In this document: piece by piece, positions 8,109-58,553 of the stretch
Position numbering within the stretch: position 1 is the first letter of the stretch
Layout: each line of letters opens with the position of its first letter
Assembly: GCF_029962835.1 (NCBI RefSeq)
Contig: NC_080577.1
Span: 434,001 to 498,000, forward strand
DNA from: Magnolia sinica
Taxonomy: Eukaryota; Streptophyta; Magnoliopsida; Magnoliales; Magnoliaceae
DNA: 64,000 nt
Direction of reading: 5' to 3'
Notes under the pieces: generated by a model
What the model was told of the DNA's origin: nothing
The model's database searches: none
What the model saw: the letters and a program-made list of their open reading frames with translations, nothing else
Position numbers and translations under genes: made by a program

Positions 8109-9405
8109 GGAAGTGGACTGCGTCCTGCCCCCACCTGGACGATAATCAGTCCAGGAAGGGCTCTGTGGGGCCCACCGTGATGTGTGGTTTTTATCTATGC
8201 CGTCCATCCATTTTTCCAAATCATTTTAGGATATGAACCCAAAAATGAAGCAGATCCAAGGCTCAAGTGAACCACACATTGGGGATTGAACTCCCACCAT
8301 TAAAAACTTCCTGTGAGTGGCAAAAGTTTTAGATCAATCTGATATTTGTGTTTTCCCTTCATCCAGGTCTAAATGACCTGATGCAGGACAATCAACCACT
8401 TGCTCTAAAAGTTCGAACTGTTAGAGTATGGTGAATTAATCCCTTTATCTCATAGCCCAAGCCCCATATCTCATGGGTTAGGACCTCGGCCGAACTCCCT
8501 TCGTGGGCCCCAAATCACATGGGCCGCCCACCCCGAGTGTGTCCCCGCATCTCACGGGCTACCCCACTCGAGCCCGGTGTGAAATGCGCATTAATCACCC
8601 TTGGTAAAGAGTCTCGAACACGAGACCTCTCCGTGGGTCCTAAATCGCATGGGTTACCCACCCCAAGTGTGCCCCTGCATCCAACAGGCGACCCCACTTG
8701 AGCCCAGTGTGAAAACGCCCCTGCATTAATCATCCCCGGTAATGAGTCTCGAACACAAGACCTCCCGCTCTTATACCAATTTGATGCAGGACAATCAACC
8801 ACTTGCTCTAAAAGCTTGAACTGTTAGAGTATGACAAATTAATTCCTTTATCTCATAGCCCAAACCCCACATCTCATGGGTTAGGACCTCGGCTGAACTC
8901 CCTTCGTGGGCCCCAAATCACATGGGCCACCCACCCCGAGTGTGTCCTCACATCCTACGAGCTACCCCACTCGAGCCCGGTGTGAAATGTGCATTAATCA
9001 CCCCTGGTAAGGAGTCTCAAACACGAGACCTCCCCCGTGGGCCCGAAATCGCATGGGTCACCCACCCCAAGTGTGACCCTGTATCCAACAGGCGACCCAC
9101 TCGAACCCAGTGTGAAAATGCCCCTGCATTATGACCTTATGAACAAGTTGGATGGAAAATAAACATCACGGTGGCCCCTAGGAAGGTTTCAACAGTGAGT
9201 TTCATTATCACCGTCACTTCTTGTGATGCAGTCCACTTCAGCATTGGACCTGCCTAATTTTTAGACTTGTAACCTAAAATGATATGAAAAAATGGATGGA
9301 CGGCGTGGATAAAACCCATACATCACGGTGGGCCCCACAGAGCCGCTACTTGGATGCATTAAGCATTTAATGCGTCCAAGCGGGGGCAGGACGCAATCTG
9401 CTTCC
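8109..9405 (-). mobile_element. Palindromic Mutator-like MITE (family PAL), split by a TRIM; 9-bp target duplication
   Basis: This is the best-defined copy of the dominant repeat family. It is flanked by a perfect 9-bp direct repeat, GTTTTGGAG, at 8100-8108 and 9406-9414. Its ends are inverted repeats: GGAAGTGGACTGCGTCC on the left and GGAAGCAGATTGCGTCC reading in from the right. The inverted similarity continues inward for most of each arm, through a CTCTGTGGGGCCCACCG block, so the single strand could fold into a long hairpin around an asymmetric centre. A 9-bp duplication and long terminal inverted repeats are hallmarks of Mutator-like elements. There is no transposase. Without the nested TRIM and its duplicated 7 bp the element is about 540 bp. 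The centre (ATGACCTTATGAACAAG) marks it as reversed relative to the copy at 29437. Confidence 0.88.
8380..9130 (-). mobile_element. TRIM retrotransposon nested in the palindromic element
   Basis: Two nearly identical direct repeats of about 350 bp, 8380-8734 and 8783-9130, are separated by an internal domain of only about 48 bp. Read on the minus strand, TTGGTATAAGAGC begins about 3 bases after the first LTR and is a slightly degenerate initiator tRNA-Met primer binding site. The insertion is flanked by ATGACCT at 8373-8379 and 9131-9137, and removing it restores the centre of the palindromic element. LTR ends are short inverted repeats (TGCAGG/CCTGCA) set in by two bases from the duplication. 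Each LTR contains a CTCGAACACGAGACCTC-type block and ends in a segment (ACCACTTGCTCTAAAAG) shared with the TRIM at 573-1016, so the two elements are related. Confidence 0.8.
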
Positions 9406-14341: not shown

Positions 14342-16486
14342 TGTACAAATGAACACTGGAATGACCCATGCCTGTGATATGTGACTTGCTGTCGATAGCC
14401 CATGCACCGAAAATCACTAGATGAGAAGATACTAGCCATAGAAAATTTGGCTTTTTATTGGTTGGATGGAAATCTTGCTGCATTTTCCCTTTGAACCCTC
14501 GACTTCTTATCAGCTTGTTAAAAGGTTTACAATTTTTCCATCTGGGACATTTTTGGTGCAAGAGCCAACCATAGTGAAGTCCATGATATTAATGGTTTGG
14601 ATCACAGAACAATGGCCCCGCTTGTACAAACTAGAGACAACAAATGCAGTACTATGTGATAGCTTCGTCAAGCACCGGACATCTTAACCGTTCAACACGT
14701 GAAGTGTCCTGCTAGGACAATCTTGACCATTGAAAAAATTTCATGCCTATCTAGCAACTTTGATGGTGGACTTTCAATTATTACTGTTTTCCAATGTTGT
14801 GGTCCACCTAAGATTTAGATATGCCTCGTTTATGGAATCAAGCCCTAAAATGATCTGAAAAAATGAATGGACAGCATGGATAAAACACATACAAGATGGT
14901 GGGTCCCACTTACCACCAATCATTACCCATGCTTCATAGCCAAACCATGTCCGTCAACCTCAACGCAAAATAAATAAATAAAGGGGGAAAAATGACTTTT
15001 CTTAGGTCAACCTTACTAGATCTTGATGAGAGAGGGAGAAGGAAACTGAGTGAGAGGGAGATGGAGACGTTGGAGGGGAAGAAGCTGTTTATATGATAAA
15101 GAGGCCACCAACTAGCTTGAATGCAACTGTGATTCTCCCCAACGGCAACCTTGCAACCTTCATTGCATTTAAATGCAGCCTCATAACTTTCAATGGCCGC
15201 TTAGCCTTCACTCCATTTGAACGTGAGTAGGCCTCTTCAATACAAGCTGTGATTCTTTCCAAAAATTTTAATTTCAAAGATTCCAACGATTACCTATATT
15301 AAAGATACATGTAACTTGAAAAACAACTCTAATCTCTATATTTTTCTGTATGAAAGTCATACGTTGGGAGAAAGTTACCTGTAACTTTATTCCCCAAAAC
15401 ATCAACCACAACATTCGTACATGTAACTTTGTTACATTTTAGAAATGTTACTAGCATCCAAACGGGCTTAGGGTTCTCTAAATGTTTTTATAAGTTTGAG
15501 AGAGTTTTGAATGGCAAAGGCTATGGCTTTTCCTCTTGGAGCATTGATCAGTGAAGTTTAATCTTTTATAACTTTGTTTTTCATAGCGCATCTCGCTTTG
15601 TAGCATAGTTTTTTTATTCTACAAGAAAATTTTCACATAAATTCCGTGATTATAATTATCTTGTTTGATTTCTCCATGTGTGCTTCTACAAGTCCCAACA
15701 CATGTATAAGAGCACCAATTTACATCCCGTTTCAAAGTAACACGTGTGTGATCTAATCTAACCATCAAGTGACTATAGCCATGTAAATGCTCTCATATTT
15801 CTGCAAACCCAACTTAATCCAGGTCCAAAGACCTGATGGGTACCCAGACCCATTCAGATCCGAGACTAGGTAATTTAAGAAGTCGAGCATGAGGGACCCG
15901 AAACCAGTTAGCTAGGCTACGGCAATTATAGCACCAGGCCTGGTGACAGCCCTGGTTGTAGAAACAGTAGCACCAGACCTGTTAACAGCCCTAGCTACTT
16001 ATAGACAATTCCATGTCAGTATAGAGAACATGGTAATCCTGATCATCCATCTCTTGGGATGGGATGTCCCAACTCCTTTTGCCATTGGACGTTCCATTCA
16101 ATCGGTATGTCAGCAGGTTGAAGTATTGATGGCCTGACCTAAGAATCTACGTTCCACCGAATGCGAGGCTCATCAAATCAGTACCTAAGTTCTCGAGACA
16201 TTTTATGACGAATTATCCCGCCGGAGGATATCCACATTATGCTTGGATTCTCGAAGAAGAGCAAATGGTTCGATGATCCAGAACATTGGGTATGTTGGGC
16301 CTGTTAGGGATGGAACGTTCCATACAGACCTTCAGCTTGCAGCATCCTCGTTCAACTGAAAACGCACGAGAATAGTGGCTAGGAGTTTTCCATATGAGCA
16401 ACAACCAGATATCTCCATTGTTGGGGGCCGCTTAAAAGGTTGGGTTTTCAGCTAACGCAAGTTGGGCCCATTGGGACCCACCAAAT
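14342..16486. other. Spacer, no gene assigned
   Basis: One palindromic-element arm (14766-14912) and short open frames are present. Sequence around 15800-16440 has a higher GC content and a TGGGTACCCAGACCCA-type start suggesting an old repeat, but I could not pair its ends. The 64-codon frame at 15943-16137 has no recognisable motif. Confidence 0.35.
14766..14912. mobile_element. Single arm of a palindromic Mutator-like element
   Basis: Only one arm remains: TGTGGTCCACCTAAG, then CCCTAAAATGATCTGAAAAA, then ATGGATAAAACACATACA and a GTGGGTCCCACT end. The other arm and centre are gone or too diverged to see. Confidence 0.7.
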
Positions 16487-17583: not shown

Positions 17584-17789
17584 GTGCCATCATGAATGCA
17601 CCATGTTCGTATAATCTACCCACATGGAACAGATGGACGGTCCAGTTTTAAGTAATTAGATAGAGAAGGCTCGCCCGCGCTGCTGTGGAATTGAAGGATG
17701 CACCACCTATGATTGGGAGCTCGGTGCACCATCAAGAATCTTGAGATTGGGAGCTCGGTGCACCATCAATCTACAGCATAGAAAGCCAT

Positions 17790-18085
17790 GGGAATTCAAC
17801 ACCTACCATTAAAAGATTCTCCAGAGCACAAAAGTTTTAGATCAAGTTGATATTTGTATTTTTCATTCATCCATGTCTCGTTGACCTTATGAATAAGTTA
17901 GATATCAAATAAACATCATGGTAAGCCCTAAGAAGGTTTCAATGGTGGGTGTTATTATTCCCCTGCCTTTTGTGGTGTGGTCCGCTTGAGGTTTGAATTT
18001 GCCTCATTTTTGGATTCATGCCCTAAAATAATTTGGCAAAAAAGATGGATGATGTGGATATAAACATCATAATAGGCCCACAAAA
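17790..18085 (-). mobile_element. Partial palindromic Mutator-like element, reversed orientation
   Basis: The central block (TTCATCCATGTCTCGTTGACC, then TTATGAATAAGTTAGAT) and the whole distal arm, ending ATAGGCCCACAAAAC, are recognisable. The proximal arm is mostly lost. Orientation is inferred from the asymmetric centre. Confidence 0.7.
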
Positions 18086-18251: not shown

Positions 18252-18882
18252 AATGTCCTTGCACAACCTGAATGGATTCAGTCCAAGTGGGGGATTCGTG
18301 TGTTAGGGGCCGTTGCACAAAACCTTAGGATCTAGCATCCTAAAAACACCAGAATTATGGGATAATGAAGCAATAAAATAAATTAAATCATGAACCACAC
18401 AACACAAGAGATTTTTACGTGGAAAACCCTCGAAGAGATAAAAACCATGGAACCTCGTCTAGAGCAACAATTCACTATGAAGTAGAACGTTACAACCGAT
18501 CACAAGCACACCTCGCTTGGATTAAACGTTCTTCACTCACATAGGAGCGGATGAACAATAAGAGAATAAAAGAAAAACGGTAAGATCTCACCGATCACAA
18601 GAACGTAGAAGTGCTGAGATGTCAAGTGTACAGTAGATCACCTCTACGAGCAGAACCTCCCTTCTACAAGCTTCCTCTCTCTCTCTCTCTCTCATACACA
18701 CACATTTGAAAGCCCTAAACCCTTTAGCAAACCCTTGTAAAGCTTTAGGAAACTCTCTTGCATTACTTAGAACAGCCCTATGTACCCCTATTTATAGTTT
18801 AGGCAACTTGCTTCCGCACTTCTTTGAAAACCATCTCAAATTTACACAGTCTGCACAAAATCCGGACATGAATCTGCGTAAT

Positions 18883-21800
18883 CTCGACTGGTCGAACAGG
18901 GTCCTCAACTGGTTGAGCGACCCACTCGATCGGTCAAGCACTTGTAACGCCCTGAAATTCGGGGGTCGAGCATAACTCAGCTCCCGAGTTCCAAAACATC
19001 ACTTATGCAACATATTTAATGATGAATGTATGTTGACTGTATTAGTGCACAAAACATAGAATAGATTAAGCCAAAACACAGATATGATTTAGGGATAAGT
19101 GAATAAAGCAAGCGGAAGACTTATAGAAAACTAGGTGTACAAGTGTAAATCCCTGAAGTACATATACAAACCAGGTCGTACTGAAAGTGTTACTTAACAA
19201 AATTTAAGTATCAAGTTACATCATTTGAGTTCCCAAAAATAATCCCATAAACCCGCACATCAGACCGAGGCTCGCTAGAACCCGTCTGAAAACTGCATAT
19301 AGGAGAAGGCAGCCTCATCATCATCCAGCTCCCGCTCTGCCTCAGAAGTCGCATCCACATCTGCAACATCAGAGCCTAAGACAGAGTCTGGTGGGTGTTT
19401 AACACCGCCCCAGAAACGTGGGAGTGAGTGATCAACTCAGTGGAACAATAAGGCATTAGTTAACATGTTATCAGTTCAATCAAACAGTAATGATAAAGCA
19501 GAACAATTAAATAAATCCTAAGTACTCTTGTTTAATGCGAGGATGTATGCAATATGATGCGTGCCCTCACGCGTACACCCTCAACGTCTTCATCTTACGT
19601 TACGCATGACATTGCCTCAAAGTGCGCCACATCTACAAAGCACATGCAAATGCGGTGAATGGATATGATTACCAAGTTGTTATTAGTCCATTTCACACAG
19701 CAGGATTGGGAAGCTAAGATACCTTCCTCATGTCACCATCCAAACAGTGATCCATACTAGGGTCGTCAATCCTAAACATCTCATACGATCATATATTTGA
19801 GGTCGTAGCAAAGGGCTCGTCACCAATCAATGCACGCCTTTCATGCCCTTACTACCACAGTTCGGCTCGTCACCTTATTGCGGTATCCAGGTATGCTCGA
19901 GGTCACTACAAAGGGCTCGTCACCAATCAATGTAGGCCGACAGCACGAATATAGTGTCCCATACCACCATAATCGGCTCACGAGTTTAGTTGCTCACTGG
20001 TCACTACGGGGAGGCTCGTCACCCCAGCGTAGGCCGACAGCTTGACCACGGTGTCCCATACCACCATGTCTGGCTCATGAGTCTTAGCGGATCAAGTACC
20101 ATAGTTAATAGGATTTTACTGGTAAGTTCGGTACCCTAGATTCAATCAATAGCGTCCATACATGGTGAACATACATCGGACAATCGGGTTACTTGGCGAA
20201 CTCAACTAGCATGAGCGCACGTTGAGTTGAGCGACATAGAGTGCGCAAACACTTCGCGTGGCCAAACCACTGCCGACAACTCTAATACGGCTCGGGTTCG
20301 TCTCATACGTCCTACGTGGCGAAAGCAACCTCAACCACGAATATAGTGTCAATTACGGATTTTCTGGACTAAGGCATAGTCCCAAACACCTTACACTACT
20401 ACAGATACTCATATGGATTGTAAAACAATAATGGAACAACAACTTAAATCATGGTACATACACATCTGAAGAATCTCAACTAAGCATAAATGTAAGCATA
20501 TGTAATGCTTGAATTTAAATAACATGAAATGTAACTTGTATAAAGGAAATCATGCAAATCAAAGGGAGTATTGAGAATCACTTCTCAACGCCCGCAATAA
20601 GTGTAATAAGTTACACTTTAGATCATTCATGCATTTCTACAAACACTTAGCATACATGGAACAACATACATGACGTATGTTGAAATACATGCATCTAGAC
20701 AATTCCTTTTACCAAGGAGTTGTCATACATGCCTCTAGCATACATATATGACAAATAATCATGGCAAACATAAGTGTATATTTTATACGTATATGGTACT
20801 TTATAAATACACATAGAATACACAAATCTCAATATAGCACATGTATATCAGGAAAGCAACGTAAACACAACATTTGGCATGTGAAATTTCATCCATAACA
20901 AGAATAAATCACTAACTGGCGTTGAAAGCCTTGAAAACCATAACCTATACACTTAAAGTCCGCACCTTAAGCGAAGAAAGAACCACCGAACTGATTTAGA
21001 TGAGTTGTCTTCGTCAACGGCGATGGAATACCCGAAGACAAAGATAGAAATGAGATACAACAACACCAAAACTAATCTAAGCTCTAACACAGGTTAGAGT
21101 TAGGTTAGAGTTAGATTAACTTACCCCAAAAAGAACTCAGAACCGTCAGAAGAACGATTCAAAGTGAAGGTTCAAAGATGAAGCAGAACAAGGAAGAATC
21201 CAAGATGATTCACCAACTTATCTCTCTCACTTTCTCTCTCTTTTCCACTCTCTTTCCAAGCTAGGGTTAGAGAAAAATTGGTATGGAAAAGAGGGCTAGG
21301 GTTTAAGGACTATAAATAGGCCTATTCTTGATGAAAATAACCCTAGGGACAAGGTATACTTAGGTTATAACCAAAGCATGCCTTTCTCGATCCAACGAAG
21401 CACTTCTGGTGGGCCTATAACCACGAAAGGTCGGACTTAAGCTCATTGACCATGGATCTAGGTCAGGCTGAGTTTTCGTACCGACTGACTCTTCAGATCA
21501 GCCGTGGCGGACCACACTCAATTCAACGGTCACGGGATCTCGATCAGGTCCACAAGCACTAGGATATGCCTGGGCCAACTATCCTGATCAGAGGGTGAAA
21601 TTGGGTCAGAATCCAACGGTCAGATAGCTTAAAATCGTCGCGCAAGCGACACGATTCATATTTCATAAAAGCTTAATAATTTCCAACCGTTCTCACACTC
21701 TTCACTCCGAACTCAATCAAATCGACCCAGAACATTAGATGGACTTGATTTTCGAGAAGATGGTCAAGCCCAACTCGGTGACCGCAACAGCCTAAGATCA

Positions 21801-22156
21801 TCACCATCGGACTTTCGAGCGCGGTCCAGGTCCGATCCAGATCTTCCAAAAATTCTCCAGAACAACTGGCTTTAGCGATGGATCCCAGATTTCAGAGTAA
21901 CGTAGCGCTAACTAATCTACAAGTTTTGAGCCATGCAGATACAATTTAAAGTGATTGATGCGAATTTCACAAGCAATCGAGTATAGCGCTAATTACCCCA
22001 AAAATAACTACTTAAGGAAAGATTAACACAAAAATTTCAAGGTCATTACAACTTCCCTCGACTGGTCGAGCACCACAGAGTTCCAAATCAATTTGCTCGC
22101 TGGACTTTAAGTCGAGCACCACTCGACCGGTCAAGCAGTGCTCTCGACTGGTCAAG
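18883..22156 (-). promoter_or_regulatory. 21-bp-phased palindrome array in LTR-A (interrupted copy)
   Basis: Fourteen-base palindromes of form CTCGACTGGTCGAG start at 18883, 18904 and 18925 (steps of exactly 21), then at 22057, 22122 and 22143 beyond the nested solo LTR (last step again 21). One copy reads CTCAACTGGTTGAG, in which both arms have changed and the dyad symmetry is kept. The array lies on the upstream side of the minus-strand TATA box at 18789-18796. I infer a U3 enhancer-like array; no binding protein is known to me. Confidence 0.6.
18943..22050 (+). mobile_element. 3.1-kb solo LTR of a long-LTR (probably Gypsy/Tekay-like) retrotransposon
   Basis: The insertion begins TGTAACGCCC and ends GGTCATTACA, so it starts TG, ends CA and has TGTAA/TTACA end symmetry. 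It splits LTR-A of the Copia element, which gives independent proof of both boundaries. Inside are irregular repeats of a GGCTCGTCACC...GTAGGCCGACAGC...GTGTCCCATACCACCAT module (19805-20100) and a CTATAAATAGG TATA-like box at about 21310. No internal domain or second LTR is present, so it is a solo LTR left by recombination. The module recurs inside the LTRs at 36134-40817 and 48529-51670. The target duplication is unclear (ACT shared). Confidence 0.8.
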
Positions 22157-22242
22157 CAACGCGGTGATTCCAGTGTTTGTGGCATCCGAACCGCACCACA
22201 TCTCCTCTGATCTGAGGAGGAAAACCCCATCAAATCTCCTCA

Positions 22243-22842
22243 TTTCTGAGTCAGGAGGAATCTGCCATCTGAGAGCTTGCGCGTGAATACACAGTGGTCC
22301 GACTCTGTTCTGTCATACCCATGCTTCAATATAAACGAGTTGAACTTCTTGTACCATTGACGTATAGCTTGTTTCAGCCTATACAAGCTCTTCCTCAGCC
22401 TACACATCATATGCTCTTTGCCCTTAACTTCGATGTACTAAGCCTCTGTCGTCGATAATGCTACAACCTTCTGTAGTTTGCTCTCCCAAGAGACCGCTTC
22501 TCCTGCAAATGTGAACATGAACCCCAATGTAGACTTCCTAGAGTCTATCTCACTTGCCATATCTGCATCTGTGTAGCCCTCTAACACGAGTTTTCTATCA
22601 CCATAGTATAGGCTCAACCTGAATGAGCCTTTTAGATACCGCAGTATCCATTTCACCATGTCATAGGTGTGGTTCTTATGTAAGGATCTCATCTCCTCTT
22701 GCATAGCTTTCAACCACTCCCCCTTATGCTCGTCGGATAGGGCTTTAGAATAATCTTCTGACTCTCCCACATTAGTGAGCATACTGTACTCATGCGGCGA
22801 GTACCTCTTAGACGGCTGTCTGTCCCTAGATGACCTCCTCAC
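22243..22842 (-). pseudogene. Copia RT/RNase H fragments in rearranged order
   Basis: Minus-strand translation gives the start of the reverse transcriptase region (HKGEWLKAMQEEMRSLHKNH), then jumps directly into the RNase H side (VKWILRYLKGS..., YTDADMASEIDSRKSTLGF, VALSTTEA). After a stop at the usual EAEYI position it continues into YIEVKGKEHMMCRLRKSLYR and QWYKKFNSFILKHGYDRTES, which in an intact element lies before the RNase H domain. The catalytic YVDD segment is missing. The coding order is therefore N-RT, RNase H, mid-RT. The joins fall at places of short similarity, which fits template switching during reverse transcription. The fragment cannot encode an active polymerase. Confidence 0.8.
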
Positions 22843-23719
22843 CTGTGGCTCAACAGGTGGATCAAGTGGGGACTACTCTCGGTTCATCTTCCGTAGGAAT
22901 TTTCTTATCCTCTGCACCTTGTTGTACTCCCCCGTCATCAAGCACCATGTGAGGAATAACCGGATCCATATCCTCTAGCTCTGTTGAACTAGGCTGCGTC
23001 TTTTTTGGCTTACAAATGTCTTCAATATATTAGTCTTCAAAGAAAACCACATCTCTACACCTGACGAGTTTTTTCTTGGTTGGATCCTACAATTTGTAAC
23101 CGAACTTTTCATCACCGTACCTCAAGAATACATACTGTCTGATCTTCATATCGAGCTTGGACCTCTCGTCCTTTGATACGTAAGTGGATGCCCTGCATCG
23201 AAATACCCTGAGATGATTTTACGATGGATCCAATACAATCCACATCTTCTTGGGTACTTCTCCATTCAACGGGGCTAATGGAGGCCTGTTTATCAAATAC
23301 ACTGCCGCGTGCATTGCTTCTCCCCAGAACATCTTGGGCAACTTCGCATGGGATAACGTGCATCTGATTCTCTCAACAATGGTGCGATTCATCCGCTCAG
23401 CTACACTATTATGCTGGGGAGTCTTGGGAACCGTTTGTCCATGTTGTATACCCAGGGACTTGCAATACTCATGAAAGTCACCGATGTATTCACCACTATT
23501 GTCAATGCGGATGCAGTTCAATAATCTACCTGTCTCTCTCTCGACCATAGCATGAAACAATTTAAACACACCAACGACCTCGTCCTTAGATTTCAAAGCA
23601 TAAACCCAAACCCTCCTAGATGCATTATCTATAAAAGTGACAAAATACAATACCCCACCCAAGGTTTTTGTTCTCATAAGACCACAAACATCAGAATAAA
23701 CCAAATCTAATGCATGCAC
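22843..23719 (-). pseudogene. Copia integrase core and C-terminal region
   Basis: The minus strand encodes an integrase core: HALDLVYSDVCG with the first catalytic Asp, FVTFIDNASRRVWVYALKSK, RIDNSGEYIG with the second Asp (usual form DNGGEY), and HNSVAERMNRTIVERIR with the catalytic Glu, followed by INRPPLAPLNGEVP. The downstream stretch near 23130-23030 reads like the Copia integrase tail (FLRYGDEKFGYKL, DPTKKKLVRCRDVVFFED), with stops replacing a Trp and a Gln. The DDE residues are present, but stops and frameshifts disable the polyprotein. In a live Copia element this enzyme inserts the cDNA into host chromatin. Confidence 0.85.
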
Positions 23720-24095
23720 TTTATTAACATGAGAAGCAGATTTAACAAATGAAACTCTATGTTGTTTTCCTAATAAACAATCAATATAGGTTTTGAGAGG
23801 TATACATGTCAGTCTGAAAGGAGCCGCTTCCTCGCCAGTAGCTGAAGTCCCTTTTCACTCATGTGGCCTGAACGCCTGTGCCTAGAGCCGGGTAATCCTG
23901 ACCCAATCCGGTGGATTCGACCCAATCCGACCAGATCTGACTCGATCCGAACCGATCCGACGGCTTGGATCGGTGCGAATCGAGTAGGGTAGTCCAGATC
24001 CGAAAGATTTTTGGGTCGAGTTCGGATCTATACTTACTCGGATTGATCCGATTGGATCCGATCTAATCCGACCCGACCCGACTCGATCCGGCCCC

Positions 24096-24571
24096 ATCAT
24101 GATGTATGTGTTTCATCCATTCCGTTCATCCATTTTACATATCATTTTAGGGCTTCATATAAAAAAATGATAGTGATATAAATCTCAGGTGGACCACACC
24201 ACAGGAAAATAATAATGATTGGATATCCACCATTATAATCCTCCTAAGGTCCACTGTACTGTTTATTTGACATCTAATTTGTTGATTAGGTCATAAGGAC
24301 CCAGATGAAAGGAAACAATAAATATCAGCTTGATCAAAAACTTTTATGGCCTCCAAAATGTTTTTGGTCAATGTTCATTCAACATTGTTTCCTACAATGT
24401 GGTACACTTGAGATTTCTATATACCTAATTTTTTTCTCATTATATAAAATGATCTATAAAAATAGATGGAGGGCATGGATGAAACACATACATCATGGTG
24501 GGGCCCACAGAGCACTGACCACGAACCATTAGCTGGTGGCAGGGGAGTAGGCAAGTAGCCCATCCGTTTCC
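24096..24571 (+). mobile_element. Palindromic Mutator-like element inside the hAT
   Basis: This is an almost complete forward copy. The left arm begins ATGATGTATGTGTTTCATCC, the centre contains TTTATTTGACATCTAATTTG and the right arm ends CATGGTGGGGCCCACAGAGC. It is followed by a right terminus, read inward as GGAAACGGATGGGCTACTTG, which defines the outer end of the family. The left terminus is lost in the hAT subterminal region. Confidence 0.75.
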
Positions 24572-24638
24572 AGTACGACATCTGCGCTCCTCGAGCTCCA
24601 AGTTGTACGAACGGTTCAAAGGAGATCAAAGTTATATG

Positions 24639-24907
24639 GGCCCCACAGTGATGTATTTATTATATCTACATCGTTCATATATTTTTGGAGATCATTATAG
24701 GACCTTATCCAAAAAATGAATAATATCCAAAGATCATCTTGACCACACCATAAATAGCAGCAAAGAATGATTTTCACCGTTAAACAATTCGTGTGGTTCA
24801 CTTGATAGTTAGATTTGTCTTATTTTTCGTCTTAAGCCTTAATACGAGCTCACCAAATGGATGGACGGTTTGGATATAACACATACCCCATGATTAGACC
24901 CACAAAA
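24639..24907. mobile_element. Deleted palindromic Mutator-like element inside the hAT
   Basis: The left arm GGGCCCCACAGTGATGTATT and the right arm ATAACACATACCCCATGATT face each other with a much shortened centre, giving about 270 bp in total. Confidence 0.65.
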
Positions 24908-25045
24908 CTCGCTAATGTCGATACAAAATCACAACTGTGCAAGCTGTGCTTGCATGAAAAGCAAGTCATGCGATTTCTTACAGTGCACATCAACATCCAA
25001 TAAAAACATGAATACGGTAGATGGAAAACTCTTTCAGAGCCATGT

Positions 25046-25170
25046 GGGGCCCACCTTGATGCATATGTTTTATCTAAGCCGTTCATCCATTTTAACATAT
25101 CATTTTAGGCCTTGAGAAAAAAAATAACATATATTAAAGGTTGAAGTGGACCACATCACATAAAACAGTT
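25046..25170 (+). mobile_element. Left arm of a palindromic Mutator-like element inside the hAT
   Basis: Only the left arm is present: GTGGGGCCCACCTTGATGC, GTTTTATCTAAGCCGTTCATCC, then GTGGACCACATCACATAAAA. It then runs into the hAT subterminal repeats. Confidence 0.7.
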
Positions 25171-25407
25171 GGATTAAATTCATACGATCCGAATCGTACC
25201 TAACTCGATCCGACTCGGTTTCTTTGACCGAGTTGGACTCAGTTCGAGTCAGGTGAATCATGTATCAGATTGGTTCAAGTCAGGTGACCCGGACTTGATT
25301 CCGGATCAGATCGAGTTCGGGTCAAACTATTGACGTTTAAGATCGGATCGAGTTGAACCCAATCCGATCCGATCCAGACCGATGCCCGGCTCTACCTGTG
25401 CCACATG

Positions 25408-26203: not shown

Positions 26204-26638
26204 TCAGGCAATACTAAGCAATAGTAAGGCCTGTAGTTCATCGTCCAGGACCATCTTCATGGCGGAGAGTTGGTTCAATATATTGTTGACTTCATTCATG
26301 TGCTCAGCCACAGAACCACCATCTTTGAACTTGAGATTCACAAGTTGTTTTATCAGAAAAATCTTATTGCCGGCTGTCTTTTTCTCATACAACCCTTGTA
26401 ATTTCAGCCATAAGCTAGCAGCTGAGGTCTCCGTAGACACATGATGGAATACAAAATCGTCTAGCCATTGTCTAATAAACCCTACCACCTTCCCGTCCAT
26501 CTTATTCCCATCATCATCTGACATATCCTTTGACTTTGCTGATATATCTTGAATTGGAGAATACAAGTCTTTGCAATAGAGCAAGTCCTCCATCTTAGCC
26601 TTCCATATGGTCCAGTTAGAACCATTGAGACTGATCAT
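26204..26638 (-). pseudogene. Copia gag (UBN2-type) fragment
   Basis: The frame starts at a Met shortly downstream of the primer binding site and reads LNGSNWTIWKAKMEDLLYCK, SLWLKLQGLYEKKTAGNKIF and VAEHMNEVNNILNQL. These are the standard landmarks of the Copia gag domain that forms the virus-like particle shell. It ends early at a stop after LLLLSIA, where intact elements continue into the knuckle. Confidence 0.85.
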
Positions 26639-26700
26639 CCTTGATTAGCCACCTTCCATAATTCAGAATTGATCCCACTCTGTTCAACCAACCTGAACGC

Positions 26701-26712
26701 TCTGATACCACT
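26701..26712 (-). other. Primer binding site (initiator tRNA-Met)
   Basis: On the minus strand TGGTATCAGAGC directly follows LTR-B with a short AAG spacer. It is complementary to the 3' end of plant initiator tRNA-Met, the primer used by most Copia elements. The last base falls just outside the listed span. Confidence 0.85.
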
Positions 26713-26713
26713 T

Positions 26714-28652
26714 TGTTGGGGTTCGTTCCACAAATTTCAAAAGGCCTAGTTATATGTCCTTTCGGGGGAATAGGACTATGCCAAATTAAAACTTTAACAA
26801 TGGAATTTAAATGAATAAAGTAAAGATAGCACTATAAACCAATCACTGTATGAAAATGTAAAGCAACCATCAAATACTAGAACAAAGAGGTTGATACCAA
26901 TGTTGTTCTAAGGACAACCTTTCACCATAAAAACCGAGGGTTTATGACAGGACAACCTTACTAGAATAATTTGAATATTAAAAACTCAAACTGAAAGGAA
27001 ATAAAGGAAATAACAAGAAATAAATTCTAAACTATTACAACATTTTCCACAATGCTTGAAATGTAAATATTACAACATTCACATCCACACATACATCCCA
27101 CAAACTTGAATGATAAAAGATATAGAAAATAAATCACACATTCACAAAGCACAAAGAGTTGTAGTGGTTCGCTTGTGTATTCACCAATTGTTAAACAACA
27201 GCCACACAGCTTGCTATTCCACTCCTAATATCCTCACACAGGGGATATTAGCGTTCACTATGAAAATAGGTTTCTCAGGTTCACCTAAAACCCTCACAAT
27301 TGTGTCTTTCAAATGGGCTTACACAATTCAAAAACCCTAACCTTTGAGTTTTCTGGCTCTCCTCAGATAATCAAAACAATAAGATTTTTCTGGCTTAATC
27401 TAAAAAAAAAACCAAAATAAAGAAATTTACAATAATGTAAAAATACCTGGATTTCTCCTTTTGTAGTAGCCTGGAAGAACCAATCGGAGTAGAAGTTCGA
27501 ACATAGAAGTTCAATTGTCTAATACTCACTTTGAAATGGTTCTAAGTTCTAATTGATTTTAAATTAAATCAAGTTAGGGCTAGCTCTATTTGATTTTGAT
27601 TCCAAGAAGTGGAATATCCCAATTCCTCTTTCAAATTAGATTGGAATGTATAAACAAAATCAAATAAGAAAAGCTAACAAAAGAGAATTTTAAATATGCA
27701 CAAAGTAGCTTAAAATGAACACAAACTTATCTCAGAGTGATGTCTTGATTTTTCTTGAATTGGATTATCAAACTCTAAAATTCGTGCTCTATTTTTAGTT
27801 GCAGAAATCGTATCTACGACTGGTCCTGTGGACACTAAGACTGGTCATAAGTCGAATAGATTTTTAAATTTTTGAGCGCGATCGGATAAAATCGTTCCAC
27901 GACTAGTCGTAGTCCTTGCACGATCGGTCGTGACACCTCTACGACTGGTCGTGGGGCACCAGGTTTGTTCGCTGTAGTTTGAGTCATAGATCCTAAACTG
28001 GTCATAGGACGAGTCGTGCACTGTTCACACGACCGGTCGAACAGAGTCCAGGACTGGTCGTAGCTCAACCAAAAAATACCAAAAATTTGCAACAAACTTA
28101 GGACTAGTCTTGAAATTTCTTGGACTGGTTAAGGCAGCTTTAGGACTAGTCGAACAAGGTCCAGGATTAGTTTTAGAACAGACCAAACATCTATAAAATG
28201 ATTCAATTTGAATTATGTATATAAAATGACCTACCATAAGGTCAATCTAAGGTCATTCATACCTTAAATGAGAAGTATATATGGACATTGAAACTTCATT
28301 TCTTCAGATGATGCATGGTTGACCTTTGAAGATTATGAAACTTTAAGATCTTTACAAGATGTAGCTTGAACTTGAGATCTTCTAAAGCTTAAATTATACT
28401 TCATCTTGTATGTTATATTGAGTTGTACTTGAGTCTTGAACAAGAACTTGCCTTTTGATGTAGCTTTTGGAAGACTCTGAACTTTGAAGCTTACAGTACA
28501 TGACCTTACATTTCTTGAAGTAGATCATCATTCCTAACTTGAAGCATTGTGATGTAGTATCTTGAACATATAAATCAACATGCTACACAAGACACAAATT
28601 ATGTTTTTGGCACCACAAAATTTGATAACTAAAGGAGCAGAAAACCATAGCA
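26714..28652 (-). repeat. LTR-B, a second Copia LTR beside the primer site
   Basis: On plus the segment begins TGTTGGGGTT and ends CCATAGCA, so on the minus strand it starts TG and ends CA, immediately before the primer site. Near 27170-27260 it carries sequence like the transcribed part of other Copia LTRs (CACTATGAAAATAGG, CTCACACAGGGGATATTAG). It is about 1.9 kb, long for Copia, so it may itself contain insertions. No matching 3' copy of LTR-B exists in the window. It differs from LTR-A except for the phased palindromes. Confidence 0.55.
27816..28172 (-). promoter_or_regulatory. 21-bp-phased palindrome array in LTR-B
   Basis: Eight-base dyads of form GAC-YR-GTC start at 27818 and 27839; 27902, 27923 and 27944; 28031 and 28052; and 28102, 28123, 28144 and 28165. 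Within each group every step is 21 bp, and the gap 27839 to 27902 is 63 (three steps). The seven or more bases between dyads vary while the core and spacing stay. A minus-strand TATA-like CTAAAAATAG lies just beyond the array (about 27788-27797), so the array sits where U3 activator sites would be. The function is inferred. Confidence 0.6.
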
Positions 28653-29007
28653 CTTACAAAAACCTTAGGATCTAGCCGTCCAAAAACACCAGAATTATGA
28701 GATAATAAAACAATGAAATAAATCAAAGCACGAACCACACAACACGAGATTTTTACGTGGAAAACCCTCGAGAAGGTAAAGACCACGGGACCTCGTCCAG
28801 AGCAACAATCCAATATGAAGTAGAATGTTACAACCGATCACAAGCACACCTCGCTTGGATCAAACCTTCTTTACTCACGCAGGAGCGGATGAAAAATAAG
28901 AGAATAAAAGAAAAACAAAGAGATCTCACTGATCACAAGAACGTAGAAGTGCTGAGATGTCGAGTGCACAGTAGATCACCTCTACGAGCAGAATCTCCCT
29001 TCCACAA

Positions 29008-29044
<37 letters not shown>

Positions 29045-29128
29045 TTTGATAGCCCTAAACTCTTTAGCAAACCCTTGCAAAGCTTTAGAAAATTCTTTTG
29101 CATTACCTAGAACAGCCCTAAGTACCCC

Positions 29129-29136
29129 TATTTATA
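29129..29136 (-). promoter_or_regulatory. TATA box of Copia LTR-A
   Basis: TATAAATA on the minus strand, inside CTATAAATAGGGGTA. It is about 300 bp from the 5' end of the LTR and just downstream of the palindrome array. The same box is conserved in the partner LTR at 18789-18796. Confidence 0.7.
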
Positions 29137-29218
29137 GTTTAGGCAACTTGCTTCCACACCTCTTTGAAAACCGCCTCAAATTTACAAGTCCGCACAAAAT
29201 CTGGATATGAAGCATAAC

Positions 29219-29360
29219 CTCGACTAGTCGAGCAGGGTCCTCGACCGGTCGAGCGGCCCACTCGACTGGTCGAGTACCATGGAGTTCCAAATCAATTTGC
29301 TCACTGGACTTTGAGTCGAGCACAACTCGATCGGTCGAGCAGTGCTCTCGACTGGTCGAG
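29219..29360 (-). promoter_or_regulatory. 21-bp-phased palindrome array in LTR-A (intact copy)
   Basis: Five 14-base palindromes start at 29219 (CTCGACTAGTCGAG), 29240 (CTCGACCGGTCGAG), 29261 (CTCGACTGGTCGAG), 29326 (CTCGATCGGTCGAG) and 29347 (CTCGACTGGTCGAG). Steps are 21, 21, 65 and 21 bp, with 7-bp spacers of unrelated sequence. The nearest palindrome is about 83 bp upstream of the minus-strand TATA box at 29129-29136, so the array occupies U3. All sites would face the same side of the helix, which suggests cooperative binding of a dimeric protein. Confidence 0.65.
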
Positions 29361-29436
29361 TAACATGCTGATTCCACTGTTTGTGGCATCTGAACCACAC
29401 CACATCTCCTTTGACCTGAGGAGGAAAACCCCATCA

Positions 29437-29858
29437 CCGTGAGGCCCACCATGATATATGGGTTTTATCCTCGACATCTATCTATTTTTCTAGATCATTT
29501 CAGGGTATGATCCCAAAATTGAGGCAGATCCCAGGCTCAAGTGGACCACATGAGAGAAAGTGGTGGTGATAATGACACCGACAGTTGAAACCTTACTACG
29601 GCACCCAATGATGTTTATTTCCCATCTATGTTGTTTATAAGGTCATGATAGAGACTTGAATGAAGGGAAAACACAATTACCGTATTGATCCAAAACCTAC
29701 GTAGCTCTTAAGAAGTTTTTAAGGGTGGGCATTCAATCCCCACTGTGTGGTCCATTTGAGCCTTCATTCTCTTTATTTTGAGGCCCTACCCTGAAATGAT
29801 ATTAAAAATAAATACAAATAAAGAGCTTGGATAAAACCCATACATAATGGTGGACCTG
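29437..29858 (+). mobile_element. Palindromic Mutator-like element, forward copy
   Basis: The left arm (GAGGCCCACCATGATATATG) and the right arm (CATACATAATGGTGGACCTG) are inverted over about 140 bp. They are separated by the asymmetric centre with GATGTTTATTTCCCATCTATG and TTATAAGGTCATGATAG. The Copia mosaic inserted at its left edge, which is why the outer left terminus is missing. Confidence 0.8.
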
Positions 29859-29880
29859 ATAAGCGCTCACCTAGGAGTCC

Positions 29881-29966
29881 ATAAGCAGGCCGGAGGCAGT
29901 TGGCTTACCTTTCAAACATGCCTATAAGCAGGCCGGAGTCAGTTGGCTTACCTTTTAAGCATGCTT
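29881..29966. repeat. 43-bp tandem duplication
   Basis: The unit beginning ATAAGCAGGCCGGAG occurs at 29881-29923 and again at 29924-29966, with four differences. Confidence 0.9.
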
Positions 29967-30257
29967 TGAGTTGGTTCATCTTTGACACTGGCACATGGCA
30001 AACTCAAATGTGTGGCCATATCTTCTTCTTTTTACTGTGTGGTGTTGCTTTCAAATATGTTTTGTATGGGCAATCTTAGAAATGGCACGTGTCCTGATCA
30101 AATGTAGCCATGTTGGTAGGACAATATAAAATAAGCATGGATTCTATCCTCACTGTCTATTCATTTTTCAGATTAATCCAAGGCATGAGCCCAAAACTGA
30201 AACATATATCCAACACTTATATAAAATAATAGAGATAATGATGTCCATATTCCTTAA

Positions 30258-30859
30258 GGGCCTGTTTGGCCAGTTGCATTGGAATGGATTAGGTGGGATG
30301 AAATTGCATCCGTTCTTGTGCCAATTCCACTCCATGTTTGGGAAGAATGGAAAAGCTTGGAAGTAGATCAGATGGAATCGCATTGTGTCCCGTGCCAATT
30401 TTACTCAATGTTAGTAAGTTGTGTAGGTCCCACCATGATGTGTGGGCTATATCCACACCGTCCACCCATTTTTTCAGATCATTTTAGAGCATGGGCCAAA
30501 AAATCAGATAGATCTAAAGCTCAAGTGGACCCCACCATAAAAAGCAACGGGGATTGAATACTTACCGTTGAAAACTTCTTAGGGGCCAAATAAGTTTTGG
30601 ATCTGCCTCATTTTTAGGCCCATGCCATAAAATGAGGTTAAAAAACAAATGAACGGTTTAGATATAACACATGTGTGTTATTCTCAATAGTTTCAAATGA
30701 TGGTAGGTATATCCATTCAATGTACTACCGTGTTACAAACAAAATATGGAATTAAGCTTATTCCATGGTAACAGGAACAATCCCTGCCATGAGTAATAAT
30801 TATGTTTCTTTAATCCCATCCCACCTAATCCTTTTCAATGCAACTGGCCAAACAAGCCC
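30258..30859. mobile_element. Tourist-type (PIF/Harbinger) MITE with nested palindromic element
   Basis: The ends GGGCCTGTTTGGCCAGTTGC and, inward from the right, GGGCTTGTTTGGCCAGTTGC are near-perfect inverted repeats. They are flanked by TAA at 30255-30257 and 30860-30862, the 3-bp target duplication used by PIF/Harbinger elements. The inverted similarity continues (GGAATGGATTAGGTGGGAT against AAAGGATTAGGTGGGATGGG). A further palindromic Mutator-like copy fills the middle. No transposase is encoded. Confidence 0.88.
30425..30680. mobile_element. Palindromic Mutator-like element inside the Tourist MITE
   Basis: The left arm AGGTCCCACCATGATGTGTG and the right arm GGTTTAGATATAACACATGT face each other. 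The centre is shortened, and the copy is about 255 bp. Confidence 0.7.
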
Positions 30860-44945: not shown

Positions 44946-46130
44946 GGGAGATTGTAAAAAGAAATAAAAGAGAAAAAGATGGAAATTACTTAAAAAGTTT
45001 TTGGGCAAATTTGTTTCAAACTTAATTAAAAAAAAATATCTATCAGTATTAGCAAAATAAGTCCTGGAAAAAAAAACGTAAAATTTTCTTACTTAAAAAA
45101 GAAGAAGAGGTGAATCTTTTATTTCTTAATTCCGTAGTTGTAAAATTAAATTTTATTGGGCGATTTATTAAAAAAGATATTTTTTTAAAAATAAGTAAAT
45201 AAGGCCTCTAAGCTTCGGCTGTTATTAAATTAGATATGGAGCCCACATTTCCTAATAACAAAGGTCCTGTAAGCAGATACATGCATGCTGATTTGTGTGC
45301 GCGCGCATGTAGACTACCGTAGCGACAGACATGCTGAAACGAATAGGGTGAGAAATAGGAAGCCAGGTCACCAAATTGAAGTCATGCCTAGCTTACCTAC
45401 CACTGAAAAAGATGTGAAATGGTTCACAGCAAAGCCGTGGAATTTCAATTATTATTATTATTTTTTCTCACAAGCGAAGGTGTCATTGATTCTGAATTAA
45501 TGGTTGAACGGTGACTGAGGTGGACGTTGCATTGCATAGTCCATAGAATCCAAATGGAGCATTGTGACAAATACCAGCTCTTGACATGACATAATTCCTC
45601 GGTGGAAATGCATGTGGCCTTTGTATCAACAACCTATTTCATAGGATTGGATATAAATCAGGGAGAAGAAGAAGAAGAAGGTGTAGTCCTAACAAAAATG
45701 CAAATAAATGGAGATGTTGGTGATGACTCCATCAACACAAATATACAACTAGCCACGAAACCTTTTTTATAATATTTCTCAAATAAAGCTCATATTAAAA
45801 TATTAATTTGATGAACACGTCTTTGGTTTTGTCGCGCTGGATCTTGAAACACCGTTCATCACCCACTACCTGGCTTGTCACTCATGTGGAGATTGATCTT
45901 ATGTACTGGGGCCTTGAAATGGATGATCAGGGTGAAAATAGATTCAATAGAAGAAGCCGTTGGATGAATTATGCATTTGGTGTAATTTTCCACAAAGAAC
46001 CATTACAGCCATGGCCCACTGGAATGATTGCACGCTTCTTCCACTTCCGCACCTGCCAAATGTCAGTTATTATTGGATAGCAGATAGGTGATCACGACTT
46101 GAACCCGGAACCATTGATGTGGATGGACCC
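44946..46130. other. Spacer, no gene assigned
   Basis: The stretch is AT-rich with a short (GAA)n run near 45665. A 90-codon frame at 45808-46080 looks moderately protein-like (DLMYWGLEMDDQGENRFNRR), but I recognise no family and it lacks supporting signals. Confidence 0.35.
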
Positions 46131-46580
46131 TGACCGTAGATTCTACCTCTATTTTATATCCATGCCGTACATCTGTTTGCTAGTTCATTTTAAGGTATGG
46201 TCCCAGAAAAGAAAGAAGATAAAAATTCCAGGTGAACCACAGCACAGGAAACGATAGTTACTTATTATTAAAAACATTTTATGGGCAACATAAGTTTTGG
46301 ATCAAGCTGATATCTGGTTTTTTTTTTTTTTTTTTTTTTGCATTTCATCCAGGTCTGCGTGACCTTATCAACAGGTTAGACAGTCAAGACACATTACTTG
46401 GACCATAGGAAATATTTAATGGTAAGCATTCAACTACAATTGTTTCCTGTGACGTGGTCCACCTGAAATTTATATTTTCTTTACTTTTTCTATAATTTTC
46501 TTAAAATAATCTGTAAAAACAGATGAATGGCGTGGATATAAAATGCATAAATAGAGGTGGGCCCTATAGTCAGGGCCACA
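46131..46580 (-). mobile_element. Palindromic Mutator-like element, reversed copy
   Basis: Arms ATTTTATATCCATGCCGTAC and GGCGTGGATATAAAATGCAT are inverted. The centre (TTTCATCCAGGTCTGCGTGA, CCTTATCAACAGG) places the copy in reverse orientation. A poly-T run of about 20 is inside. Confidence 0.78.
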
Positions 46581-48498
46581 TCCATACGGCGGGTTCCGGG
46601 TCGCAGCCCAGTGTAGCTCCAAATGAGGTACGTAATTGTTAAAGAGGAAAAAAAAAAAAGAATAAAAAGAGCTCGTAATGAAAAGACAGATGATGGACGA
46701 TTTATGGTTTTAAAAGAAAAATGGAGAAGGAGAGTTTGACTGCATTTTGGCCGTTGTATCAATTTGAGCTTACCTACTTCGCTTCTTCTAGAAGGCCTAA
46801 CTTGTCACGATGCACCTCCCTTCTAAATCTCATTTCCAGCATTTTGCATGCCATAGACAAGCGCAAAGGATTTGGTAAGAATAACTAACTGCCCCATTAA
46901 CATTTATTATTTGCTACTGTTGCATTGGAAGGCCACTGCCCAAATCAATATAATCGGCTCATCTTTAAATATTTCCCACTAGATCAATTGTCCCAATTGA
47001 TGCATTGATCTGCCACATGTATGGCAGAGCGGTAGCTCATTCATATTCGGGTTCCTACAACTCTACCGTATCATCATTCTCACAAATTTAAAATATGAAT
47101 CAATTAAATATTTTATCTATCAAAATCATTGGTGATTCCAACATTTAAAAAAAGTTCCTCAGTATAATTTCAAATGGAGGTGCATTTGGACACAATTATT
47201 GAAAAAGTCCATTCATACAGCTAGAAGCTCTCCCTTAATCATTACTTGTAATCCATGTGAAAAACTAAAATTTGCCGTTAACCATTACTTGTAATCCATA
47301 GGTGTCATAGCAATCAAGTTCACCACAGATGTCTAAGTAAGCTAATTTGTCCATTTAATGCTCCCAATTAACTTCTCTTTACCTATAATTATGACATCAT
47401 CTTTACTCGCTATGAAAATTTAATATATTATATATTCAACTTCTTAAGTATTGTTTGAAGATTTGGATGGTTTGTTTCTGTTAAAAACCATTTTGACTGG
47501 ATATTCAAACCTTCTAATCAATGGCTAGGGAGATTGATGGCTAGGGAGATTGATGGTCCATGAACTGATATTAGCCAAGGTCCAAGTCTTCATTTGGACC
47601 ATTCATAATTTGTGATTCTTCACTTTGAATGGATGATCGTGACCTTTTAGGTCAAGTAATTGTCCATATATATTAATTATGATGGAGAAGGTCCCATCAT
47701 TGGTTTGGATTTTCTATTGTTGTCGTCATGTTTATGGAAGAAAATGGAAAGGAAATTATCTGGTTGGAAAACAAAATGATGGGGAAGGTGGTGAGAAAGT
47801 TTGTCCCCATTTTCCCAGTTCCTTCCCAAACAGGTGAAAATGGCATATCTTGAAAAAATATTTTACCACTTCCAAAACAGGCCTTCAGAAAGCCAAGAAT
47901 TGGGGTTTGGCTCTGTTAACCAATTAGTCAAAAACTGGAACAAGTTGTTCTGAAGACCCCGCATACCTAATTTAGTCAAAAACTAATAAATAACAAGAAA
48001 AAAAAAAAAAATTTAACTTCAACAAGATAAACAATCAAGCTTTATTATAATATTATTTTAAGATGAGATAGCAGCAATTGATATTTTGTAAAGTCTTAAT
48101 AAATGATATGTTGCACAAAAAAGGATGAATAATTGCTCTAGAAATTATAGTTCATCATGAATTAGGACATATATGGTTACTAGGCATGCTCTTTTTGTTG
48201 AAATGGATCCCATAATTCATGGATCTACACTACTAATTTGACACTAATGACATAGATAGATTTGTGTGTGTGTGTGTATTTTCAAAAACCTTCTAAATTA
48301 AAATATTCTACCCATCCTTGGTCTCTTCCCTAAATCTTTTATTTTTCATAATTTCTCTGAGGTTATTTATTTTTTAGGCCACTTATTTTAGGGTTAGCAC
48401 CTTCCAACTAGAGAGCAATTGTAACATTGTCAATTTATGATGGGGCTAATTTGAATAGTAATGTGATGTCGAATATTAACTAAACATCGTAATGAGAT
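46581..48498. other. AT-rich spacer, no gene seen
   Basis: No coding region or paired repeat is visible, except a 17-bp phrase GGCTAGGGAGATTGATG duplicated in tandem at about 47523-47556 and a short (GT)n at 48264-48278. Confidence 0.45.
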
Positions 48499-55118: not shown

Positions 55119-55658
55119 GGACTCGGATCGGGTGGTGACCCCAACACCACCAGCTGGCTGGTAAAAAATCTGTGGGTCCACCAAGATGTATGTGTTTTAT
55201 CCACATCGTCCATCCATTTTCCAGCCCATTTTAGGGCATGGCAGATCCAAGGTCAAGTGCACCACAACATGGGAAATATGAAACAATGGGGATAATGAGA
55301 CCCACCTATGAAAATCTTCTTTAGGCCCACCATGATGTTTATTTCCCATCCAACATGTTCATAAGGTCATACGGACCTGGATGAAAGGTTATATATATAT
55401 ATATATATATATATATCAGCCTGATTGAAAGTTCTATGGCCCCTAAGAATTTTTCAGTGGTGAGTGTACAATTCCAACTGTTTCATGAGGTGTGGTCCAC
55501 TTGAGATTTGGATCCACCTTATTTTTGTGCTCATGCCTTAAAATGAGCTCGCAAAATGGATGAATGGCATGAATTAAACACGTGCATCATGGTGGGGGCC
55601 GCAGAGCTTTTGCTCCAGCTAGCTGGGTGATGTTGGGTTCACCACACAATTCGAGTCC
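55119..55658 (+). mobile_element. Palindromic Mutator-like element, forward copy with diverged 9-bp duplication
   Basis: Terminal inverted repeats are GGACTCGGATCGGGTGGTGA and, from the right, GGACTCGAATTGTGTGGTGA. Flanks AACTGGGAC (55110-55118) and CACTGGGAA (55659-55667) agree at 7 of 9 positions. The arms stay inverted through CACCAGCTGGCTGG/CCAGCTAGCTGG into the GGGTCCACCAAGATGTATGT block. An (AT)n tract (55391-55416) sits in the centre after TGGATGAAAGG. Confidence 0.82.
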
Positions 55659-58204: not shown

Positions 58205-58553
58205 GTATTGTTTGTAGTGCCCTCCTTGTTCTGTAATATGTCATCCAACCCATTCAAAAGATGCGAGAAATCAGGCCATTCCAAAACTCGGGTGGGGCAC
58301 AACATATGATTTTAGAGGATTTAGGCATGATTTTTACATTGCATGGCCCCCCAAGAACTTTTTATTGTGGGCGATCAATCACCATCGTTTCCTGTTTTGT
58401 GGTCCACCTGAGATTTGGATCTTCTTCATTTTTTGAACACATGCCCTGAAATGAGCTGGGAAATGGTGGACGGCATGGATATAACGGATACATCATTGTG
58501 GGTCCACAAAACTTTTCAATCACTGACGTGAGGAGTCACTACCGAATCGGAGT
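58205..58553. mobile_element. Partial palindromic Mutator-like element
   Basis: The centre (TAATATGTCATCCAACCCAT) and complete right arm (GGCATGGATATAACGGATAC, then GTGGGTCCACAAAAC) are present. The right terminus reads inward as GGACTCCGATTCGG and ends near 58553. The left arm is largely lost. Confidence 0.7.

Follow-up and report, generated by a model that had tools for sequence, protein, structure and literature searches.

Enhancer repeats are a feature of the LTRs of Tnt1 and Tto1. Across the Tnt1 superfamily, U3 has been described as evolving as a separate module (PMC1838419), and in ONSEN a site for a heat factor precedes the start of transcription (PMC12786077). Closest to the arrays reported here are the RM boxes of Sireviruses (Bousios et al. 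2010, PMC2829016) – palindromes, present in at least eight copies per element, most of which precede the TATA box within the upper half of the LTR, with further copies ahead of ENV in elements that have this gene. Twelve of the 13 published RMs have a CGG-CCG core, Tnd-1 being without this signature; the consulted parts of that paper state that RMs are Sirevirus-specific and absent from classic Copia elements, and leave the role of the palindromes open.

The window analysed here – a 64,000-nucleotide stretch of the Magnolia sinica genome (contig NC_080577.1, positions 434,001 to 498,000; the assembly comprises 1.84 Gb in 127 contigs) – contains palindrome arrays in two nested LTRs, referred to as LTR-A and LTR-B. 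Their unit is a 14-bp dyad, CWCGAC-YR-GTCGWG in consensus, built on the core CGAC-YR-GTCG. These arrays resemble RM boxes in being repeated palindromes upstream of the TATA box and upstream of ENV or, here, of a third open reading frame (ORF3); they differ in having CGAC-YR-GTCG instead of CGG-CCG, in a 21-bp phase that the consulted parts of PMC2829016 do not give for RM boxes, and in being present in a classic Copia family, LTR-A, the class of elements from which the same text says RM boxes are absent. The likeness to Tnt1/Tto1 and ONSEN lies in the placing of putatively regulatory sequences in the U3 of Copia elements, but the motifs there are others, and the consulted parts of those sources describe no 21-bp dyad array across Copia lineages. 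Palindrome arrays as such have been known since the RM boxes were described in 2010; new here are the GAC-YR-GTC core without CGG-CCG, the two-turn phasing and the occurrence in a classic Copia family. Our literature search found no report of a GAC-YR-GTC dyad or of 21-bp phasing, with the proviso that a 2016 paper on maize Sirevirus palindromes could contain spacing data; an exact-word search for the dyad returned matches that, by title, concern SHIVs and aptamer sensors. We consider it about 70% probable that the array serves Copia-type LTR retrotransposons as a cis-regulatory module, made of phased dyads upstream of the TATA box, common to both lineages through exchange or retention and putatively bound by a dimeric protein.

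The two LTRs, their arrays and the parts of the outer element all lie on the minus strand of the window, where an old Copia element with LTR-A carries gag (26204–26644; PF14223, 4.5e-24), an integrase core (23219–23854; PF00665, 1.1e-9) and fragments of RT and RNase H. Its 5' LTR occupies 28659–29436, is interrupted from 28658 to 26737 by LTR-B, and resumes afterwards for its last 23 bases (26714–26736), which end in CCCCAACA, as judged against the uninterrupted LTR-A ends in L016, L020 and L021. The primer-binding site TGGTATCAGAGC follows at 26699–26710; because it adjoins the end of LTR-A, an early assignment of the gag-pol to LTR-B was dropped. LTR-B itself (26737–28658, about 1.92 kb) belongs to a Sirevirus-type Copia family; it is present here as a solo LTR, which has inserted close to the 3' end of the 5' LTR-A. 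Its ends were set from 27 copies besides the window's, not all of which span both ends, and replaced the TGTTG/CAACA boundaries drawn before the copies had been aligned. The termini in its relatives are TGTAAGTG...CCTTTTCA, the final CA having become GA in the window; target duplications of 5 bp flank the copies L029 and L034, and the flanks in the window, GTTTT and AATTT, are at best a decayed target duplication.

The 3' LTR-A (18319–22232) is in two pieces, 18319–18941 and 22057–22232, split by an insertion at 18945–22050 (TGTAACGCCC...TTACA) that cuts it within its dyad array. Exact dyads lie at 18886, 22060, 22125 and 22146, with a one-mismatch dyad at 18928 and a two-mismatch dyad at 18907; either this copy exceeds the 5' copy by one dyad unit, or a unit was duplicated by the insertion. 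Just before the 3' LTR-A, at 22240–22872, the RNase H piece precedes the RT piece, and the same swapped order occurs in the A-family copies L015, L018 and L019 (three of the seven inspected), which suggests that a family whose pol is scrambled has been amplified.

The LTR-B array spans 27818–28172, within U3. The initial annotation had counted at least eleven dyads in four groups with internal steps of 21 bp, and this description holds: the groups (27818–27846, 27901–27950, 28031–28059 and 28102–28172) contain two, three, two and four dyads, with 21 bp at each of the seven internal steps; only the gap given as 63 bp needs correction to 62 (27839 to 27901). Eight of these eleven dyads are exact; those at 27922 and 28123 have one mismatch and that at 28165 has two, and further one-mismatch dyads stand between groups at 27996 and 28008. 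Neither number nor spacing is due to chance: GACYRGTC occurs 17 times in the window, as against a mean of 2.0 and a maximum of 5 in 100 shuffles; letter shuffles of the array region yield a mean of 0.02 exact dyads and at most one (2,000 shuffles); and six pairs of dyads with at most one mismatch lie exactly 21 bp apart, whereas 20,000 random placements gave 0.35 such pairs on average and never more than 4.

Comparison with the 27 other genomic copies confirms that this stretch belongs to an LTR. A single order of steps – 21-21-21 / 50 / 21 / 35 / 53 / 21-21 / 62 / 21 – is common to the 28 LTR-B arrays, the window's included, with exceptions in the form of single dyads missing from some, an extra 21-bp step in L030 and shifts of one or two bases, or of eight in L040; the copies carry 10 to 13 dyads each, allowing one mismatch. 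As the gaps of 50, 53 and 62 bp between groups are no multiples of 21, the 21-bp phase is confined to the interior of groups. In L013, L032, L036 and L040, one dyad group has units with differing spacers in different orders, which suggests shuffling of 21-bp units.

The array in the 5' LTR-A (29222–29357) has exact dyads at 29222, 29243, 29264 and 29350 and a one-mismatch dyad at 29329. It shares core and 21-bp phase with LTR-B, as the initial annotation had maintained; the outer bases, which were said to set the two apart, do differ, but in degree only, the flanks being CW...WG in general and the right outer base T in 35 of 83 A-like dyads. A TATA box follows each array: within CTATAAATAGGGG at 29128–29136, 85 bp past the last dyad, in LTR-A, and as a decayed CTAAAAATAGAGC at 27786–27798, about 20 bp past the last dyad, in LTR-B, whose B-like relatives have TATAAATAG or TATAAATAA.

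The phased dyads are abundant far beyond the window. Across the genome there are 100,758 GACYRGTC pairs at steps of 11 to 41 bp, as against 206 for the same pattern written backwards, which served as the control in place of shuffles; steps of 22–41 account for 19,377 pairs (control 146) and steps of 11–20 for 12,401 (control 50). Subtraction leaves at least 68,980 pairs with a step of exactly 21 bp, a lower bound because some starts have two partners, and the genome-wide excess of 21-bp spacing, whose absence the initial annotation had named as a refutation, is thus present. Among the first 50 places listed on contig 1, the step is 21 bp in 35 and another in 15, five of these being 41 bp. An RY centre gives only 68 pairs genome-wide (601 in its own backwards control). 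Both LTR families are large: in its first pass, the genome search returned 5,653 candidate arrays for B and 2,821 for A, of which the best 40 of each were scored. Viral contigs scanned for phased dyad pairs contained five loci with one pair each and no array; these pairs, at four loci of 63–71% GC and one of 37%, were set aside as chance.

The place of the arrays within elements was examined at 30 loci, all on contig 1: ten from the first listing (15 less five overlapping duplicates) and 20 picked from the listings of steps 22–41 and 11–20, that is, of steps other than 21. They comprise 21 A-like LTRs, five B-like LTRs and four internal arrays that follow pol and precede ORF3, the latter separated by hand, since grouping by similarity around the arrays merges them with A-like loci via pol coding sequence. 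One set of arrays, with steps 20-15-20 as in L073, had been taken for a third LTR family before proving to be internal arrays after pol. The LTR arrays lie in U3 and precede the TATA box. A TATAAATA-like box follows the last dyad at 88–90 bp in 15 of the 21 A-like loci (one of which, L080, has a second, weaker box at 39) and at 31, 58, 78 and 151 bp in four others, with no box found in the remaining two; among the five B-like LTRs it follows at 20 bp in three and at 39 in one, with none found in the fifth.

Internal arrays stand between the end of pol and ORF3 in both B elements fetched solely for their pol ends, with steps of 15-21-89 in L097 and 20-15-21-90 in L098, some dyads having one mismatch. 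Counting all loci that hold the pol–ORF3 junction, an array is found there in six out of six, four of which had been selected for their arrays. No consistent TATA box follows the internal arrays at the contig 1 loci examined. The ORF3 of the B-type elements matches Transposase_32 weakly (5.3e-5 and 9.5e-6, both below the curated cut-off). A genome search for PF20167, in which 150 of 13,875 candidates were scored, found it too common to be informative.

An array that grows and shrinks by 21-bp units might also be a neutral minisatellite hitch-hiking with its LTR. TRF does call a 21-bp tandem repeat in LTR-A, and unit number differs between copies: the first group counts four units in one LTR-A copy and three in the other, and L030 has the extra step already mentioned. 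Yet half-sites are held in place. In LTR-B, transversions per site amount to 0.0065 in the half-sites GAC/GTC, 0.0272 in the spacers and 0.0183 elsewhere in the LTR (24 full-length copies out of 28; none of 10,000 permutations reaches the observed value), with transitions not clearly separated (0.046 in half-sites versus 0.063 in spacers, p 0.07). The corresponding transversion rates in LTR-A are 0.0033, 0.0913 and 0.029 (21 copies out of 28, seven incomplete matches having been dropped; 0 of 10,000 permutations). Since the copies were the best matches to the array and the dyad columns were defined by the majority of the same copies, some bias is possible in these rates; in both families, half-sites are better preserved than the surrounding spacers. 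The dyad centre in LTR-A combines many transitions (0.24) with few transversions (0.010), a pattern consistent with tolerance of any YR step. Transversion rates about 4 to 28 times lower in half-sites than in spacers, a fixed distance to the TATA box in most A-like loci and the use of one core by two LTRs that fail to align make neutral minisatellites the least plausible of the alternatives, extremely improbable in our view.

Assignment of LTR-B to the Sireviruses draws on hallmarks seen in subsets of its copies. The Sirevirus PPT AGGGGGAG, after which come AT and then the TG that opens the 3' LTR, occurs as an exact twelvemer in five of the 28 copies, the other 23 – solo LTRs, 5' LTRs and the window copy among them – having been left unsorted. 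The consulted parts of PMC2829016 give the 5' LTR junction of Sireviruses as CA / ATTGG or AGTGG / TATCAGAGC; CA/AGTGG/ followed by TATCAGAGC or a near form is present in 8/28 LTR-B copies when slack is allowed at three positions of the primer-binding site. A poly-C signal near the 3' end of the LTR, counted as a run of at least eight C, is found in half of the copies (14/28), and the window copy has a run of five. By these features the LTR-B family appears to be Sirevirus-type, which would make its array an RM of a new sequence type: it is palindromic, has at least eight copies, sits in U3 upstream of the TATA box and has copies upstream of ORF3 – probably ENV, judging from its position – and it lacks the CGG-CCG signature, its core being CGAC-YR-GTCG.

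For LTR-A, the PPT AGGGGGAG-AT-TG is absent at all five LTR starts found among 12 loci, and a purine tract is present at the LTR start in L015, L018 and L063 only. ENV is not obligatory in Sireviruses; at the one locus concerned, L063, a space of about 40 bp lies between the RNase H match and the LTR, without a linker and ENV. LTR-A is accordingly best classed, from its sequence features, as a classic Copia family that carries the same dyad array.

How two such families came by one core and one phase is the question on which convergence has to be weighed. The initial annotation had offered convergence on a common host regulator beside its retention, and had named two outcomes that would count against its reading: whole-length homology of the two LTRs, and no genome-wide excess of 21-bp spacing. 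Neither was found. LTR-A and LTR-B share no whole-length homology (local score 34, shuffle maximum 40), and outside the arrays the scores, 25 and 19, likewise stay below the highest obtained from shuffles, 34 and 28; together with the genome-wide excess, this leaves the shared core and phase standing. Independent evolution of core and phase in both families would agree with this failure to align, with the different palindromes that other Sireviruses have at the same place (in the consulted part of PMC2829016, Table 3) and with the marginal similarity of the window's own LTR-A/LTR-B array pair, whose score is reached by 3/100 shuffles. However, words other than the dyads recur in several A-like and B-like arrays alike, among them GTGAACAGTG at a 23-bp step and GACTCAAAGTCCAG in the gap, above controls in which the dyads were kept and the spacers shuffled 100 times. 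Out of 20 A-like arrays (19 loci plus LTR-A), the number for which all 100 shuffles were beaten is 14 for L095, seven each for L079 and L086, six for L072 and four for the LTR-B of the window; these tests are not independent, the loci being related, and exclude L067, L075 and L093, whose orientation is unclear. A strict pattern for the gap word GACTCAAAGTCCAG matches three of 25 arrays, all of them A-like and none B-type.

Because the arrays share non-dyad words though the LTRs do not align, a common module, acquired by descent or exchange, seems likelier than convergence, which the shared words make very unlikely; that part of the initial annotation is disfavoured. As between the two routes to a common module, exchange is probably the better candidate than ancient retention, since A-like and B-type elements are only 35–51% identical at their RNase H ends – a deep split – while spacers change fast.

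In the mechanism that we propose for this module, dyads within groups, being two helical turns apart, would face one side of the DNA and would be bound cooperatively by a dimeric protein, the likeliest candidate being a host transcription factor; the bound factor would control LTR transcription and perhaps, in Sirevirus-type elements, also that of ORF3, the two lineages holding the module through exchange or retention and not through convergence. A dimeric, cooperative promoter binder would fit because half-sites are symmetric, the YR centre is flexible, the spacing is two turns and the place is upstream of the TATA box. The dyads are, on the other hand, all self-complementary, and might act as RNA or single-strand hairpins, adjacent dyads pairing with each other, that serve as small-RNA precursors or structural signals and not as protein sites; the palindromes of maize Sireviruses are reported to attract small RNAs (consulted part of PMC10760457, citing Bousios 2016). 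Adjacent centres are complementary in 14 of 49 pairs, however, as against 11.4 expected (computed by hand from the frequencies of the centres), which lends hairpins no support, and the arrays, being upstream of the TATA box, fall outside the 5' part of the transcript. The preference for YR over RY centres, 100,758 pairs versus 68, would have no evident reason if hairpins were the functional form, which we regard as unlikely.

As for the binder, the initial annotation had suggested a common host regulator: core and phase are the same in both LTRs, the host origin of the binder is presumed, and an element-encoded factor might take its place. The arrays would then be targets of an anti-silencing or regulatory protein resembling VANC, possibly the ORF3 product of Sirevirus-type elements. 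VANC target arrays in VANDAL elements are indeed alike in consisting of short motifs that accumulate in tandem, with repeats gained and lost between copies, and in VANDAL21 the target motifs multiply in introns and upstream regions as tandem repeats form (PMC5735166). The B-type ORF3, with its weak Transposase_32 match, adjoins the internal array. VANC arrays differ, though, in belonging to other elements and in having a known element-encoded binder, where ours is putative and its motif a dyad; VANC21 has the motif YAGTATTAY, and the consulted text of PMC5735166 nowhere uses the word palindrome. The A-like L063 has an array, yet only some 40 bp separate its RNase H match from the LTR, which leaves no room for a third ORF, and nothing links ORF3 to DNA binding. 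An element-encoded factor of the VANC kind is therefore quite unlikely, and a host protein is the preferred candidate.

The case is sharper than that of 2010: the dyad is defined and 14 bp long, the step is fixed at two turns, natural variants run to tens of thousands, and two lineages share the motif. The binding factor and the promoter role thereby become directly testable in this genome, and transfer of regulatory modules from one retrotransposon lineage to another is suggested. More tentatively, and as a conjecture that we find conceivable rather than probable, one DNA-binding factor may read at least 68,980 two-turn-phased dyad pairs and control both Sireviruses and classic Copia elements through a promoter module passed on by recombination, forming a trans-regulated retrotransposon network in which RM boxes would not be Sirevirus-specific.

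The dyad centres are biased by strand. On the sense strand, CA centres number 57 and TG centres 9 (24 oriented loci with 119 dyads, from 29222–29357 and L062–L096; binomial p 1e-9, though the loci are related). Such a bias is not expected from a symmetric site, which may be read directionally, or the bias may be inherited.

Other repeats were met along the way. A different dyad, GACATGTC, at G000:C13:27046812-27046881 has steps of 41 and 21 bp, and pairs resembling GACGCGTC...GACGTGTC, 22 bp apart, recur on several contigs; both are possibly further phased palindrome families. The window also holds many copies, on both strands, of a short interspersed repeat, mostly 100–400 bp long and about 65–86% identical (8165–9340, 14760–14930, 17789–18063, 24090–25173, 29439–30600, 46103–46601, 55170–55611, 58343–58516 and 60220–61104).
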